Assembly (NCBI GenBank): GCA_017539105.1
Contig: JAFYHQ010000009.1
Span: 1-64,000 of the forward strand
Length of the DNA: 64,000 nucleotides
From: Erysipelotrichaceae bacterium
GTDB lineage: Bacteria; Bacillota_I; Bacilli_A; Erysipelotrichales; Erysipelotrichaceae
Reading direction: 5' to 3'
Shown: positions 15,852 through 22,903 of the stretch, in pieces
How positions within the stretch are numbered: position 1 is the first letter of the stretch
How the letters are laid out: each line of letters starts with the position of its first letter
Notes under the pieces: generated by a model
What the model saw: only the letters and a program-made list of their open reading frames with translations
The model's database searches: none
What the model was told of the DNA's origin: nothing
Made by a program: the position numbers and the translations under genes

Positions 15852-15945
15852 TTGATAAATAAAACAACCCTTTCGAATTGCCCTCAACATTTCTATTATC
15901 TCACATTTCTTCCAAGAAAAACAGACTGTTATTTTTCTGCAGAAT

Positions 15946-15954
15946 TGTTAAGAT
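15946..15954 (+). promoter_or_regulatory. Extended -10 promoter of the structured RNA
   Basis: TGTTAAGAT is an extended -10 (TG, one base, TAAGAT) with CTGTTA 17 bp upstream as a weak -35. The predicted start is about 15961, giving a transcript of about 350 nt up to the terminator at 16278-16308. Confidence 0.5.
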
Positions 15955-16024
15955 GAAAGTGTAAAGAGAAGACCAATAATGAAAGATCTGCGAAGGCGCA
16001 GATAAATGTTAGGAGGATTTAATA

Positions 16025-16054
16025 ATGAAGGAGATCTTGAAAGAAATTCATTGA
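16025..16054 (+). CDS. Nine-codon ORF (possible leader peptide) inside the structured RNA
   Basis: ATG to TGA encodes MKEILKEIH. A full AGGAGG Shine-Dalgarno sequence lies eight bases upstream (16011-16016), stronger than that of most real genes in the window. The stop codon ends two bases before the first strand of the pseudoknot. This layout suggests translation could affect the RNA fold. Translation itself is unproven. Confidence 0.35.
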   Translation: MKEILKEIH

Positions 16055-16277
16055 TCCCTCATTGACTTGTGATCAGCGGGTCAATGAGGAGTAACCGGCT
16101 GATCAGAAGGAAAAATCCGAATAAGACAGATTGAAAGCATTACTGATCTGTATATCGGATGTGAAACACCTTCAGTTGTTTCAATATCAGATATATATAC
16201 TTTAAATAAAGCATAAAGAGTTATCCCATATAACTATAGCTGCATAAGGCAGCGTGCGAAAACAACGTGAAACGTTC

Positions 16278-16308
16278 AAACTACCGGAGAAGCATTTCCG
16301 GTAGTTTT
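16278..16308 (+). terminator. Terminator ending the structured RNA
   Basis: AAACTACCGGA pairs with TCCGGTAGTTT (11 bp) around a short loop and runs into TTTTTG. Confidence 0.9.
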
Positions 16309-16353
16309 TGTTTCACTAATAATAAAAAATAGTGTATTTAAAGAAATATCGTG

Positions 16354-18167: not shown

Positions 18168-21110
18168 ATGAATCATATCAGGAAAAGCGTAGTGGCTGCT
18201 GCAACATTGCTGATGCTGGCGATGGGTATGGGAACCATATACGCGGATGAGAAAGAAACTACGGAAAGCGATTCGCATATTGCGTCTTATGTGTTTGTTC
18301 TGGATGATGGGACTGCGGTGCCGGAAGAGGTATCGCGTTTTGTTCCGGAAAGAAAAACAGGTTTGAAAGACGGGGATGTCATTGAAAACGAAGCGCAGCC
18401 GGATATCGTAACGAATGATTATGTCTATTCGTTTGTGAAGTGGGATCAGGATTCCTATACGGTAGCGGATTCTGATGTGGTCTTTACAGGAACGTGGACA
18501 AGAAGAAAAAGACTGAAGAGCAGCGATATGAGAACCGAGGAACTGAATCTTCATGCTGCAAATGAAACCGGCAGGCCGTCTTCCACAGACTTTCAGACTT
18601 TGCGTTGGGATGATTTCGGAGCTTCCTGCTGGGGTACGTTTGAAGATGGAACGAGATATTATCCTTCGCTCTTTTTCGTTGCTTATGAAAGAGAAAACGG
18701 TCTGTTGAAAGATCGTAAGATCTGTTTCTGTGTCCAGCACGGCTATTCGTTCTGTACCGATGGGCATACGATTTACGATGTCAGCAGCATCGATGAATAT
18801 CCTCTGCTTACGGAAAGCAACAAGACGAAGATCGTCCGTATCGCTTCCTATGCGTTGAAACAGAAGAATATGTACTGGAGAGATGCCAGCGGCAGCCAGT
18901 CAGGAAAATGGATGAATATCGAAGAAGCTTTGGCAGCCCAGATCGCCATCTGGATGGTTGCGGGAGACAATGGCAATTCCACGGGTCAAAGAAGACTGAC
19001 GATGCAGGAGTGCAGCACGTTGGATATCGGCTACATCAATTCCAGAGCGTCTTACTACTATAACACCGTTGCGAACCAGGAAACATCCGATGGCATTCAT
19101 CTGGAACAGGCATTGTATTCCGGCAGGGTCGGGCAGGTCTTTAAAATCGGCAAGATCGATGATCCATCCGGTGCGACGATTACGTTATCCGACGGTGTCG
19201 TTTTCTGCGATGCGGAAGGCAATGAAAGATCTTCTATCCAGTGGGATGGAAAGTACTTCTACATCAAAACGACAAAAGCGATGAAGAATGCGACCCAGAC
19301 GATCGAAGCGCTTCCTTCGGGCCAGCAGGAGGCTCTTTTCCTGGAACATCCTACGGCGCAGAATATGATCATCGCAGGCGCTTTCGTTTCAAAGGCAAGC
19401 TTCAAGGTCACGGCGATACAGCTGGAACTGAGCGTTCTGAAAGTGCCTGCGCAAAGCGATTTCGATTATCTTCATGAATGCCCGAACAGTTATTCTTTGT
19501 CGGGGGCAGTCTATGGCGTGTATCGTGACAGGGAATGCAGCGATCTGATAGAAACGCTGACGACAGACAGCGAGGGTAGAACGCCGAAGATGTATTTCGA
19601 TGAAGAAGGGACTTATTACGTGAAAGAGATCGCTTCTTCCTCGGGTTATGCGTTGGATGCGACGGTATATACCGCGATAATCACAAACGACAGGGAGTGT
19701 GTCATAACTTCTACGGAACCGCCTTTGAATGATCCGATCCGTCTCAGTCTGATCAAAAAGAACGCGAAAGACGAAACAAAGGTTCGTTATCTTGATACGG
19801 CAGAGTTTACTTTGCGATACTATGATACCCAAGAAGATGACTTATCGGATCTGGAGCCGAAATACGAGTGGGTATTCAAAGCGGCTTATTCTGATAATAA
19901 TGAAGCAGAAGTCTTGTTCGATGAAGCGCATTTCGTGTGCGGAGACGAGCTTCTTCTGAATGACTATGGAGACTTTTTTCTTCCGTTAGGAACGTTTACG
20001 ATACAGGAAACAAAAGCTCCGCAGACATATCTGATCGATGAAACCGTTTATATCGGTCACATCGTTGAAGAAAACGATAAAGCGGTCATTCATTATGTCA
20101 ACGAAGAAGACTGGGAATATCTGAAAGCAGAGAACGAGAGCCTGATACAGACGGAACGGGAGGCGATACAAACGATCGCTTCCTTCAGGGAAAACGGTGA
20201 AAACCATTATCCCGCAGATGGATTTGCGACGGTCATGGATACAGTGATTTATGATTACCTTGTTCCGGGGCAGTCTTATACGCTGGCAGCCAAGCTTGCG
20301 GATAAGGAAACGGGAGAAATCATGTTGATGAACCGCAAGGAATTCGTTCCTTCCAAAGAGAGCGGCAGCGTACTAGTGAAGGTTGGAGAGATGGATCTGA
20401 CAGATCTGGCCGGTTCCTCTTATGTGTGCTACGAATATCTTTATGTAACGGAAAAGATCACGGAATTTACGAACGATTTGAACGAACTGGATGAGGAAGT
20501 CCTGAAGGAATATCTGGTGACTTGCCACGAAGATCCAGAGGATGAGGAGCAGACGCTTTCTGTGGACGATCTGTATTCCGCTGCTTTTGTCTTGTATAAG
20601 ATCGGCGACAACAGGCAGGAAAACAGACTTTCAGGGGCCTACTTCGATGTTTCGACGAAGAGGACACGAAGGGATGGATCGCTCGTTGAAAGAAAACTTG
20701 GAACTTTTGTGACAGGAGGGATCTATGCCGAAGATGAAGAGCCGTTTACTTTGCATGTCTATTCAGATGAAAAGATGACAAAGAAGGTCGGTTCCTATGA
20801 ATCCAGACATGACAGCAGGTTCAAGAAACAGGCGGTGACGATTCTTGATCTGGATGACGGGGTCTATTATGTGAAGAAGAACGATGAAGAAGGTTGCGAT
20901 ATTTATCATATCGGTAAAGGGATGATCTATCTTCCGGATCAGGAAGAGGATACGGAAATTACCTTCAAGGAACTGATCGCTCCGATCGGTTACGCAGTCG
21001 AACCGAAACCTTTCACTATGACGGTCGGTCATGATGACAGGATCAGGAAGGTAGAGAACTATCGTGCGAATTACCTGCTGTATATTCCTGTCACGGGAAG
21101 GGATGCGTGA
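18168..21110 (+). CDS. Thioester- and VaFE/SpaA-type surface adhesin with truncated sorting signal
   Basis: A 980-residue exported protein. A signal peptide is clear (MNHIRKSVVAAATLLMLAMG...YADE). Residues ~140-290 look like a thioester domain: a Cys in CFCVQHGYSF and a Gln in AAQIAIWM fit the Cys-Gln internal thioester pair that covalently captures host amines. SpaA/Cna_B-type beta modules follow (around SLSGAVYGVYRD...EEGTYYVKEIASSSGYAL, and others near 860-960). One VaFE-type repeat is at about 680-770 (DTVIYDYLVPGQSYTLAAKL...KEFVPS...YEYLYV). The C-terminus is YIPVTGRDA: an LPxTG-like motif with no hydrophobic helix or basic tail after it. A class B sortase gene follows 10 bp later. Confidence 0.85.
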   Translation: MNHIRKSVVAAATLLMLAMGMGTIYADEKETTESDSHIASYVFVLDDGTAVPEEVSRFVPERKTGLKDGDVIENEAQPDIVTNDYVYSFVKWDQDSYTVADSDVVFTGTWTRRKRLKSSDMRTEELNLHAANETGRPSSTDFQTLRWDDFGASCWGTFEDGTRYYPSLFFVAYERENGLLKDRKICFCVQHGYSFCTDGHTIYDVSSIDEYPLLTESNKTKIVRIASYALKQKNMYWRDASGSQSGKWMNIEEALAAQIAIWMVAGDNGNSTGQRRLTMQECSTLDIGYINSRASYYYNTVANQETSDGIHLEQALYSGRVGQVFKIGKIDDPSGATITLSDGVVFCDAEGNERSSIQWDGKYFYIKTTKAMKNATQTIEALPSGQQEALFLEHPTAQNMIIAGAFVSKASFKVTAIQLELSVLKVPAQSDFDYLHECPNSYSLSGAVYGVYRDRECSDLIETLTTDSEGRTPKMYFDEEGTYYVKEIASSSGYALDATVYTAIITNDRECVITSTEPPLNDPIRLSLIKKNAKDETKVRYLDTAEFTLRYYDTQEDDLSDLEPKYEWVFKAAYSDNNEAEVLFDEAHFVCGDELLLNDYGDFFLPLGTFTIQETKAPQTYLIDETVYIGHIVEENDKAVIHYVNEEDWEYLKAENESLIQTEREAIQTIASFRENGENHYPADGFATVMDTVIYDYLVPGQSYTLAAKLADKETGEIMLMNRKEFVPSKESGSVLVKVGEMDLTDLAGSSYVCYEYLYVTEKITEFTNDLNELDEEVLKEYLVTCHEDPEDEEQTLSVDDLYSAAFVLYKIGDNRQENRLSGAYFDVSTKRTRRDGSLVERKLGTFVTGGIYAEDEEPFTLHVYSDEKMTKKVGSYESRHDSRFKKQAVTILDLDDGVYYVKKNDEEGCDIYHIGKGMIYLPDQEEDTEITFKELIAPIGYAVEPKPFTMTVGHDDRIRKVENYRANYLLYIPVTGRDA

Positions 21111-21120
21111 TTGAAGCATC

Positions 21121-22212
21121 ATGTCAGAATATATGCCGAAGCACGGAAGACCGGAAACATCTCAGGAAAAGCAAAAAAGAAGCGCTTTGTCGTACGAAAG
21201 GAATATGGAAGAATCGATCGGATATGATCAGATCATGGAACCGTCGTTCCTGGAGAATATCGTCTGGATCGATGTGGAAGACGACGAAGAAATTTTGTTT
21301 CCGGAAGCATCGAACGATACCGGGCAGACACAATGCGCAAAAGCCGTTCCCGTTCCGGTCAAACCGAAAAGAAAACGGCTAGGCATCTTCCTGATGTGCG
21401 GGGTGTTGCTGATAATGATAGTTCTGCTGTTTCAAGACGCAACGGGTTCAGGATCGAACCAGCAGGATACGGATCCTTCTTTTGATCCGATGCCCGAGAA
21501 ACTAAAAAAGCTTTGGGCAGCCAGCCATTCGATCAATGGTGATTATATCGGACAGATCATCTTTGATTCGGGACTTGCCGATCTGGCGATCGTTCAAGCC
21601 GATGATGTCTATCAGGAAGATGGAACCATGTATGAATTCTATACGCAGAACGGGCTCAGAGTGAAAGATCCTACGGAGTATTGCGGGAACGATGTCTATA
21701 TCTGGTCGGATTGGAGAACGCACCGGTATGACGGGTACGCGGAAGATGGCGCTGTCTTTCTCGATTACAGGAACAGTCCGGATGATCAGAATTTGATCCT
21801 CTATGGGCATCATATCGCCAGAGACTTTGATGAGAAAGGCGATAAAGAATTCACTCCTTTGGATGTCTTTCTGAATGAAGAGAACTATGAATCAAACAAA
21901 TCGCTGAAACTGGTTCTGAATCATGAAATCAGGGAATATGAAGTCGCTAGAGTCTTTACGATCGATGTATATGACGAGAAAGAGATACAGGTCGTGAGAA
22001 CGGACTTTGATCATGATCTTTCCGGAAATGATGATCCCGGTTTCCTAGAGAACTATCTGTCCCTGATCGATACGTTAGAAGCCTATCCCATTGACACGAA
22101 ACTATCAGACGATGACAGATTCCTCACGCTCATCACCTGCATCCAGCATCAGCCTCAGTATCGGCAAGTCGTGCTTTGCAAAGAAACGAAGACCAAAAAA
22201 TATGACGGATAA
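21121..22212 (+). CDS. srtB: Class B sortase
   Basis: A 363-residue transpeptidase. An unusually long acidic cytoplasmic part of about 85 residues precedes a single membrane helix (GIFLMCGVLLIMIVLLF), and the catalytic domain lies outside. Active-site His is in LILYGHHIARDF, Cys in TLITCIQHQ and Arg in YRQVVLCK; the long insert between His and Cys is typical of class B. Its gene is 10 bp downstream of the adhesin, so it probably anchors that protein or cuts it. The usual class B motifs are NPQTN-like, whereas the adhesin ends in IPVTG; the pairing is therefore inferred from position. Confidence 0.9.
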   Translation: MSEYMPKHGRPETSQEKQKRSALSYERNMEESIGYDQIMEPSFLENIVWIDVEDDEEILFPEASNDTGQTQCAKAVPVPVKPKRKRLGIFLMCGVLLIMIVLLFQDATGSGSNQQDTDPSFDPMPEKLKKLWAASHSINGDYIGQIIFDSGLADLAIVQADDVYQEDGTMYEFYTQNGLRVKDPTEYCGNDVYIWSDWRTHRYDGYAEDGAVFLDYRNSPDDQNLILYGHHIARDFDEKGDKEFTPLDVFLNEENYESNKSLKLVLNHEIREYEVARVFTIDVYDEKEIQVVRTDFDHDLSGNDDPGFLENYLSLIDTLEAYPIDTKLSDDDRFLTLITCIQHQPQYRQVVLCKETKTKKYDG

Positions 22213-22237: not shown

Positions 22238-22271
22238 AATGTACATAAAAATGTATAATAATGTACATAAA
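22238..22271 (+). promoter_or_regulatory. Promoter and paired operators of the toxin-antitoxin operon
   Basis: The 12-mer AATGTACATAAA occurs at 22238-22249 and again at 22260-22271, 22 bp apart (two helical turns), each built on the palindrome ATGTACAT. A TATAAT -10 box (22254-22259) lies between them. This is the layout expected for autorepression by an antitoxin-toxin complex. Confidence 0.7.
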
Positions 22272-22283
22272 GGAGTAAATAAT

Positions 22284-22502
22284 ATGACACAAGTTAGTAT
22301 CACTGAATTCAGGAATCATATTAAAAAGTATAGTGAACTTGTCCGGGAACAGGATTTTGAAGTCGTGAATCGGGGGGAAGTCGTATTTGTTGTCAAGAGT
22401 CCGAAATCGAATAAAGAAGATGCTTTCAACGCGTTGATGGGAGCTGTAAAATCTGATATCGCATATGAGGATATCCTGGAAAAGAAGGTTGTTGAATTAT
22501 GA
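22284..22502 (+). CDS. Phd/YefM-family antitoxin
   Basis: A 72-residue protein. The N-terminal MTQVSITEFRNHIKKYSELVREQDFEVVNRGEVVFVVKSP is the Phd/YefM DNA-binding fold (Lys/Glu-rich, with the RGE/VVFVV strand). The acidic C-terminus (SDIAYEDILEKKVVEL) would wrap the toxin. The ATG at 22284 follows AAAGGAG; an upstream in-frame ATG at 22239 lies inside the operator and is unlikely. It overlaps the PIN gene by 4 bp. Confidence 0.88.
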   Translation: MTQVSITEFRNHIKKYSELVREQDFEVVNRGEVVFVVKSPKSNKEDAFNALMGAVKSDIAYEDILEKKVVEL

Positions 22503-22903
22503 AGGTTCTGATTGATACGTGCGTGTCTCTTGATTTTATTCAGCAAAGAGAGCCTTTCTTTGAAGATGCGAAGAAACTGTTTGAAGCAGTCAGAAACGAA
22601 GAGATCGAAGGCTATATCACGGTAAAATCCCTGATGGATATCCACTATGTTATAAAACATATCCTGCATGACGAGAAAGCGGTTAGAACGATATTAGAAA
22701 ATCTGCTTGTTCTGATGAAGCTGCTTGATTCTTCAGCAAACGATGCCGCGGCCGCATTGCATTCCAACGTGACAGATTATGAAGACGCGCTGATGGCTGA
22801 AACAGCCGTTTCAAAAGGAATGGATCATATCGTAACAAGAAACATCAGGGATTATAAAAACGCAGCGATCGCTGCGCTGATGCCGGGAGAACTGATCGGA
22901 TAA
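22499..22903 (+). CDS. PIN-domain toxin (VapC-like ribonuclease)
   Basis: A 134-residue PIN protein. Acidic active-site residues are visible: Asp6 in VLIDTCVSLDF, the central acidic pair in VTDYEDALMAETA (about 97-101), and the late Asp in RNIRDYKNA. These coordinate Mg2+/Mn2+ for RNA cleavage. It is co-translated with the Phd-type antitoxin through an ATGA overlap, so it is the toxin of the pair. The target RNA cannot be read from sequence. Confidence 0.88.
   Translation: MKVLIDTCVSLDFIQQREPFFEDAKKLFEAVRNEEIEGYITVKSLMDIHYVIKHILHDEKAVRTILENLLVLMKLLDSSANDAAAALHSNVTDYEDALMAETAVSKGMDHIVTRNIRDYKNAAIAALMPGELIG

Follow-up and report, generated by a model that had tools for sequence, protein, structure and literature searches.

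Locus and predicted transcripts

The element lies in the window, that is, the whole 64 kb stretch of DNA analysed, and its core is a long RNA predicted on the plus strand at about 15961-16311, the 5' end being placed from the -10 box and the 3' end from the terminator. The extended -10 box TGTTAAGAT (15946-15954) precedes the conserved 5' end of the RNA, GUGUAAAGAG, which is followed by the hairpin ATCTGCG-AAGG-CGCAGAT (15986-16003), by the Shine-Dalgarno (SD) sequence AGGAGG (16011-16016) and by a nine-codon mini-ORF, here called alpha, which encodes MKEILKEIH* (ATGAAGGAGATCTTGAAAGAAATTCATTGA, 16025-16054) and bears an internal SD-like AAGGAG at codons 2-3. An H-type pseudoknot starts two nucleotides after the alpha stop codon; its 10-bp stem S1 pairs 16057-16066 with 16080-16089 and its 8-bp stem S2 pairs 16070-16077 with 16098-16105. 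Further downstream the plus strand holds the sequence GAATAAGACAGATTG (16119-16133; GGAGGATAGACCAACAG in sister species), recognised in the genus alignment as the decayed counterpart of a 3' motif of other genera, a hairpin AGTTATCCCATATAACT (16219-16235) also present in several species of the genus, and an intrinsic terminator (16278-16311) formed by 13 bp at 16278-16307 and a T-run. The window contains a single copy of the RNA with a single module, in the order promoter, hairpin, AGGAGG, alpha ORF, pseudoknot and terminator. The extended -10 box, SD sequence, nine-codon ORF, pseudoknot and terminator had been described in an earlier note on this DNA, and each of them was found at the place assigned to it.

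The calculated folding energy of the element was -104.3 kcal/mol with a z value of -6.0, and none of 100 shuffled sequences showed a value as low. We infer that the long RNA is transcribed from the predicted promoter, giving a stand-alone molecule of about 350 nt. As for the features that define a dual-function small RNA, the ORF is conserved and the RNA has a predicted promoter and terminator of its own.

The -35 region of the promoter contains the palindrome AACAGACTGTT (15920-15930), shared with a second promoter on the opposite strand, whose -10 box (GATAAT on the minus strand, conserved as ATTAT(A) at a distance of 25-30 nt to the left of the palindrome centre) occurs at 15895-15900. In 74 distinct promoter regions the AG.CT of the palindrome is invariant and its centre is located 24-30 nt from the -10 box on both sides. 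The predicted divergent mini-transcript, 5'-AUGUUGAGGGCAAUUCGAAAGGGUUGUUUUAU (15858-15890, minus strand), consists of a 5' tail UGUUGAGGG, a hairpin and a U-run. Among 81 family promoters, the minus-strand start reads UGUUGGG or similar in 60 and is directly followed by a terminator-like hairpin in 62, compared with 4% in shuffled sequences, and a hairpin in this position implies a transcript of 25-30 nt. The bidirectional promoter is thus predicted to drive this short terminated transcript to the left and the long RNA to the right. Pairing between the divergent mini-RNA and the long RNA was rejected, as the only match seen by eye in the window comprised six pairs and was absent from other genera. 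The length of about 350 nt given for the RNA in the earlier note holds, but the limits of the unit had to be revised; since the promoter and the conserved divergent mini-transcript belong to it, the whole unit extends over about 15858-16311.

Distribution and gene neighbourhood

Homologues were detected by DNA and pattern searches in 20 of the 36 species of the genus, many of the genomes being incomplete assemblies of uncultured species. A pattern consisting of an SD sequence, MKEIL(x)EI and a stop codon was searched in 84,980 species genomes and returned 34 DNA stretches, all from Erysipelotrichaceae. When the 3' motif, which reads GAGGnnAGACCAATGGAC in other genera, was searched alone, with no ORF information, 65 of 268 family genomes were matched versus about 17 hits for a reversed control, and most of the matches had the mini-ORF upstream, the same architecture being recovered. 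The arrangement occurs in at least 11 genera (g1, g10, g17, g20, g30, g31, g35, g37, g44, g48 and g58). No homologues were found outside the Erysipelotrichaceae in the sampled rest of the class or in viral contigs, plasmids and phages. The matches that class-wide pattern searches gave in other families were rejected, being gene starts or positions inside genes, as was a phage, plasmid or viral origin, given that nothing there matched the element and the plasmid matches were tRNA.

A cross-genus model, R1, was built from 42 copies of other genera and none from the genus of the window; it is a sequence-only model, since RNAalifold found no common pair in its alignment. Its sole match in the 64 kb was 15920-16065 (E=1e-10), which includes the palindrome, and it also found relatives in the genus. 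Together with the 3'-motif search, this model shows homology independently of the patterns used for collecting. The element gave no match to Rfam 15 (RNase P, SRP, T-box, 6S, raiA, ROOL, GOLLD and others) either in the window or in 18 relatives, in agreement with the earlier claim that it belongs to no known class. Matches at threshold were two tRNAs and one SAM riboswitch, all outside the element, and raising the limit to E = 10 added only matches far below the gathering scores. The riboswitch (L042:443-527) lies upstream of one RNA copy in genome G025. The literature searched yielded no paper on the alpha peptides or the 3' motif, and no such element emerged from the parts of recent genome-wide structured-RNA screens reached by keyword look-ups.

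Flanking genes differ from species to species even within the genus. In the nearest species (L002), telA still lies upstream, another gene lies downstream and the matching tRNA is found on another contig. The reading of the locus as a free RNA gene is borne out by these changing neighbours; the meaning that had been attached to the par operon/telA or tRNA-Val neighbourhood is not, since this context is not conserved. No downstream gene is common to the genera, those of g1, g20, g35 and g58 being all different, and in most copies a strong terminator precedes any gene. As gene context is not conserved, the RNA mostly appears to stand alone. The only genera with a common downstream gene are g31 and g48, where the RNA and its terminator lie just upstream of a Xaa-Pro aminopeptidase gene at about 16 loci; in g31, nudC is often divergent. 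Of the g35 copies, two continue into the genes for a lipoprotein and for a small secreted protein; copy 1 of L146 continues into a gene for a small protein, and a decayed copy (L255:1207-1836, minus strand) leads a gene whose score exceeds the curated cut-off of the geobacillin-26 bacteriocin family. These copies, with those of g31 and g48, indicate that the unit can act as a cis leader or did so in the past.

Some further features were recorded near the copies. A stretch of about 4.2 kb in g35 (L220, 561-4770) contains four 3'-motif copies around amidohydrolase, lipoprotein and small secreted protein genes. About 320 nt after the alpha start in L010 there is an ORF whose start resembles a GG leader and which contains many LTNxSLI-type repeats; it is perhaps a modified-peptide precursor. 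In the window itself, inspection by eye revealed a gene for a large surface protein with pilin-like repeats and, after it, a sortase-like gene (18168-22212), and then a gene pair resembling a Phd-type antitoxin and a PIN-domain toxin (22239-22903).

Coding and covariation signals

The alpha set comprised 115 modules with 79 distinct ORFs, its collection having begun from patterns. The ORFs are 8-10 codons long and their consensus is M[KR][KE][VI]L[LK][EN][YIF] with up to two more residues. Across the 79 distinct sequences all six Leu codons are used at codon 5 while the peptide is kept, and synonymous changes are also seen among the codons for Ile, Val and Tyr, indicating that the frame is under coding selection; synonymous variation occurs both within the genus and across genera. 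The RNAs contain one to four modules, two being common and four alpha ORFs being found in L097, and the tandem copies encode near-identical peptides.

Constraint at the nucleotide level was also observed. The Glu at codon 3 is encoded by GAG in 52 of 52 ORFs and the Glu at codon 7 by GAA in 63 of 63, the GAG share of Glu codons in the genes of the window being 26%. Codons 2-4 agree with AAGGAGGU at 6-7 of 8 positions in 74 of the 79 ORFs, with a mean match of 6.71 versus 6.12 (sd 0.08) for random synonymous codons. An internal contact with the anti-SD sequence would be the simplest reading of this constraint. Programmed frameshifting was rejected because slippery codons are not kept across ORFs, and stop-codon read-through or bypassing because the inspected sequences show neither a downstream frame that is conserved nor a landing codon that matches.

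A hairpin begins within 8 nt of the alpha stop codon in 99% of the modules (median 2 nt; mean z -3.4). In the genus alignment, which contained 21 sequences and 15 pseudoknot pairs, 97.7% of the cells are paired; lack of stem conservation among relatives had been named in the earlier note as part of the refuting outcome, and the two pseudoknot stems are conserved. Changes on both sides occur in 10 of the 15 pairs, S1 showing covariation and S2 having 7 of its 8 pairs changed in this way. None of 500 shuffles reached the observed value in any of five measures, and the signal was destroyed when the partners were shifted by one to three columns. In other genera the partner of the hairpin loop is a strand immediately 5' of a GAGG further downstream. 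The outer position of this S2 shows all four Watson-Crick pairs (UGCAGA/UCUGCA, GGCAGA/UCUGCC, CGCAGA/UCUGCG and AGCAGA/UCUGCU), and more distant versions of the pairing differ throughout. When partners were swapped across genera, the observed score was reached by 11 of 20000 permutations with 24 distinct classes and by 0 of 20000 with all 66 sequences. The earlier claim of a real structure is therefore upheld by the fold and by covariation both in the genus and across genera. Between the alpha start and CCUCAU a pairing is possible but unsupported, since the columns involved never vary in the genus, and it was not retained as a demonstrated switch.

The region downstream of S2 has, across genera, the layout GAGG, AGACCA, AUGGAC, where a second mini-ORF, beta, begins with MD. 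Its length ranges from 2 to 13 codons; in 36 of 63 cases it has exactly five, and in 84% the stop is reached within eight codons, compared with 62% and 44% for the other frames. In many sequences, not in all, the S2 strand also joins a local hairpin over the beta SD. In g58 the sequence GAGGAyArACCAATGGA is found repeatedly, immediately behind a promoter, where it forms the start region of short ORFs (L249, minus strand, at about 2846; L250 at about 2425; L252 at about 2112), with HTH+TPR or TPR regulators adjoining; these sites may be ordinary gene starts or may share a regulator with the RNA family.

Since relatives in at least 11 genera keep both peptide and fold, we consider it almost certain, on the comparative evidence, that the element represents an undescribed RNA family with a coding alpha ORF and a pseudoknot. 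The mini-ORF and pseudoknot of the earlier description stand, while the tandem modules, the second mini-ORF, the bidirectional promoter, the divergent transcript and the leader copies had been missed.

Proposed switch, alternatives and significance

With a coding mini-ORF, the translation-dependent folding envisaged in the earlier note becomes plausible. Our best explanation, which taken in full we regard as having about an even chance, is that the stand-alone RNA would act as a ribosome-operated switch. The bidirectional promoter would give rise to a stand-alone RNA with one to four modules, each composed of an SD sequence, an alpha ORF and the stop-adjacent stem S1 of a hairpin or pseudoknot. 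A ribosome footprint spans the sequence just beyond the stop codon; because the alpha stop abuts S1, the ribosome terminating on alpha would have to cover the 5' strand of this stem, and the internal SD-like sequence at codons 2-4 would probably retain it there. The departure of the ribosome would allow S1 to form, and then S2, so that alpha translation and pseudoknot folding should not take place at the same time. The 3' strand of S2 lies, in most genera, immediately 5' of the beta SD and overlaps the rival local hairpin there, and alpha translation would in this way determine which state the 3' half adopts. As found in the window, the RNA keeps the alpha-pseudoknot half in a compact H-type form and has lost beta. 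The output would for the most part act in trans or reside in the RNA itself, and some copies would serve as cis leaders; the main form is taken as a trans-acting or self-contained RNA since most copies end in a terminator and have no common gene. As to the separate parts, ribosome gating may hold or fail with similar probability, while an output mainly in trans is put forward tentatively, the balance leaning against it.

Several observations count against the switch. Convincing S2 was not found in a few copies (L233 and L237), the local hairpin rivalling S2 is missing in g20 and g58, and conservation of the beta peptide was not found beyond MD. The genus alignment shows beta to have been lost from the window copy, and no match was obtained in 16 of the 36 genomes of the genus, many of them incomplete.

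The loci upstream of the Xaa-Pro aminopeptidase gene, the g35 copies, copy 1 of L146 and the decayed geobacillin-26 copy would all fit a cis-acting leader of the uORF attenuator type, in which mini-ORFs and pseudoknot govern either read-through into the next gene or its translation, and stand-alone copies have this gene behind the terminator or have lost it. We consider this unlikely, since no downstream gene is shared among genera or even within the genus of the window, most copies have their strong terminator before any gene, and the next gene in the window is a tRNA with its own -10-like TATAAT. Alternatively, the alpha peptide might itself be the product, for example a short intracellular or signalling peptide encoded in one to four copies per RNA, the folds only tuning translation and stability. 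Its conservation through synonymous codon change, the near-identical tandem copies and the regulators adjoining related 3' motifs in g58, which are of the peptide-binding kind, agree with a micropeptide gene; such a gene, however, requires neither the nucleotide constraint at codon 3 nor the stop-to-stem spacing and covarying pseudoknot, and no export signal is visible on the peptide, which makes this account quite improbable.

A ribosome or anti-SD decoy, whose tandem SD-rich mini-ORFs would load and hold ribosomes and lower the free 30S subunits, would be in line with the two strong SD-like sequences per module, the frequent internal match to AAGGAGGU and the tandem modules. The single-copy, single-module RNA of the window speaks against it, as do the very high expression that would be needed and the peptide conservation and S2 that it leaves unexplained, and we hold it to be very unlikely. 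We give almost no credence to the idea that the structure arose by chance or that a known class, for instance a tmRNA variant, went unrecognised, in view of the covariation, the coding signal, the cross-genus homology and the lack of any Rfam match; moreover, canonical tmRNA was found elsewhere in relatives, over cut-off in 11 of 13 genomes.

The proposed ribosome-operated switch can be compared with known systems. Like tmRNA, the RNA combines a short internal ORF and pseudoknots within about 350 nt, but it has no tRNA-like domain and has its own SD and AUG; ARAGORN detected no tmRNA in the window, and the genus encodes a canonical tmRNA separately. RNAIII, SgrS and SR1 are likewise regulatory RNAs that also encode a small peptide; their peptides are longer and not repeated, and they have no stop-adjacent pseudoknot or tandem modules. 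Pseudoknot switches of the repY-repZ type occur in IncI-alpha, IncB and IncL/M plasmids, where the second ORF encodes the replication protein and the loop is the target of an antisense RNA. The source papers on the repY-repZ leader of IncI plasmids are cited in PMC10724649. Both systems contain a short leader ORF whose ribosome remodels the RNA, as predicted here from synonymous conservation, SD and stop, and a pseudoknot in which a hairpin loop pairs with a strand beside a second SD, seen here across genera, the genus of the window having the compact H-type. Unlike the plasmid system, our locus is chromosomal with no plasmid match, no replication initiator lies downstream and no protein gene follows most copies, the second ORF has only 2-13 codons, and there is no loop-complementary antisense, the predicted conserved divergent transcript lying upstream of the loop without overlapping it. 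The switch would thus be close in logic to the repY-repZ leader, minus the regulated gene. The uORF motifs of genome-wide screens, namely odc1, uORFC-6-1 and uORFC-13-1 (PMC8632094) and ilvB and fthC (PMC11109978), share a conserved micro-ORF of about 10 codons within a conserved fold beside a terminator. They are defined by a fixed downstream gene, which the mostly stand-alone RNA reported here does not have, and none is reported from Erysipelotrichaceae with the alpha peptide.

Small-protein surveys usually apply a length limit that leaves out ORFs of 8-10 codons, and the RNA is absent from Rfam, which explains how a family present in at least eleven gut-bacterial genera went unnamed until now. 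Since the coding signal, the internal SD-like constraint and the covarying pseudoknot all fall within about 100 nt, the module provides a clean test bed for ribosome-driven RNA remodelling. The copies located before bacteriocin-like and secreted-protein genes in some genera suggest a regulatory part able to move between genes. A new class of regulators, made of stand-alone tandem micro-ORF/pseudoknot RNAs with terminating ribosomes as the moving part and a divergent transcript of 25-30 nt made from the shared palindromic promoter, is a possibility that we would advance with some reserve, and there is a real chance that this RNA family forms a class of its own.
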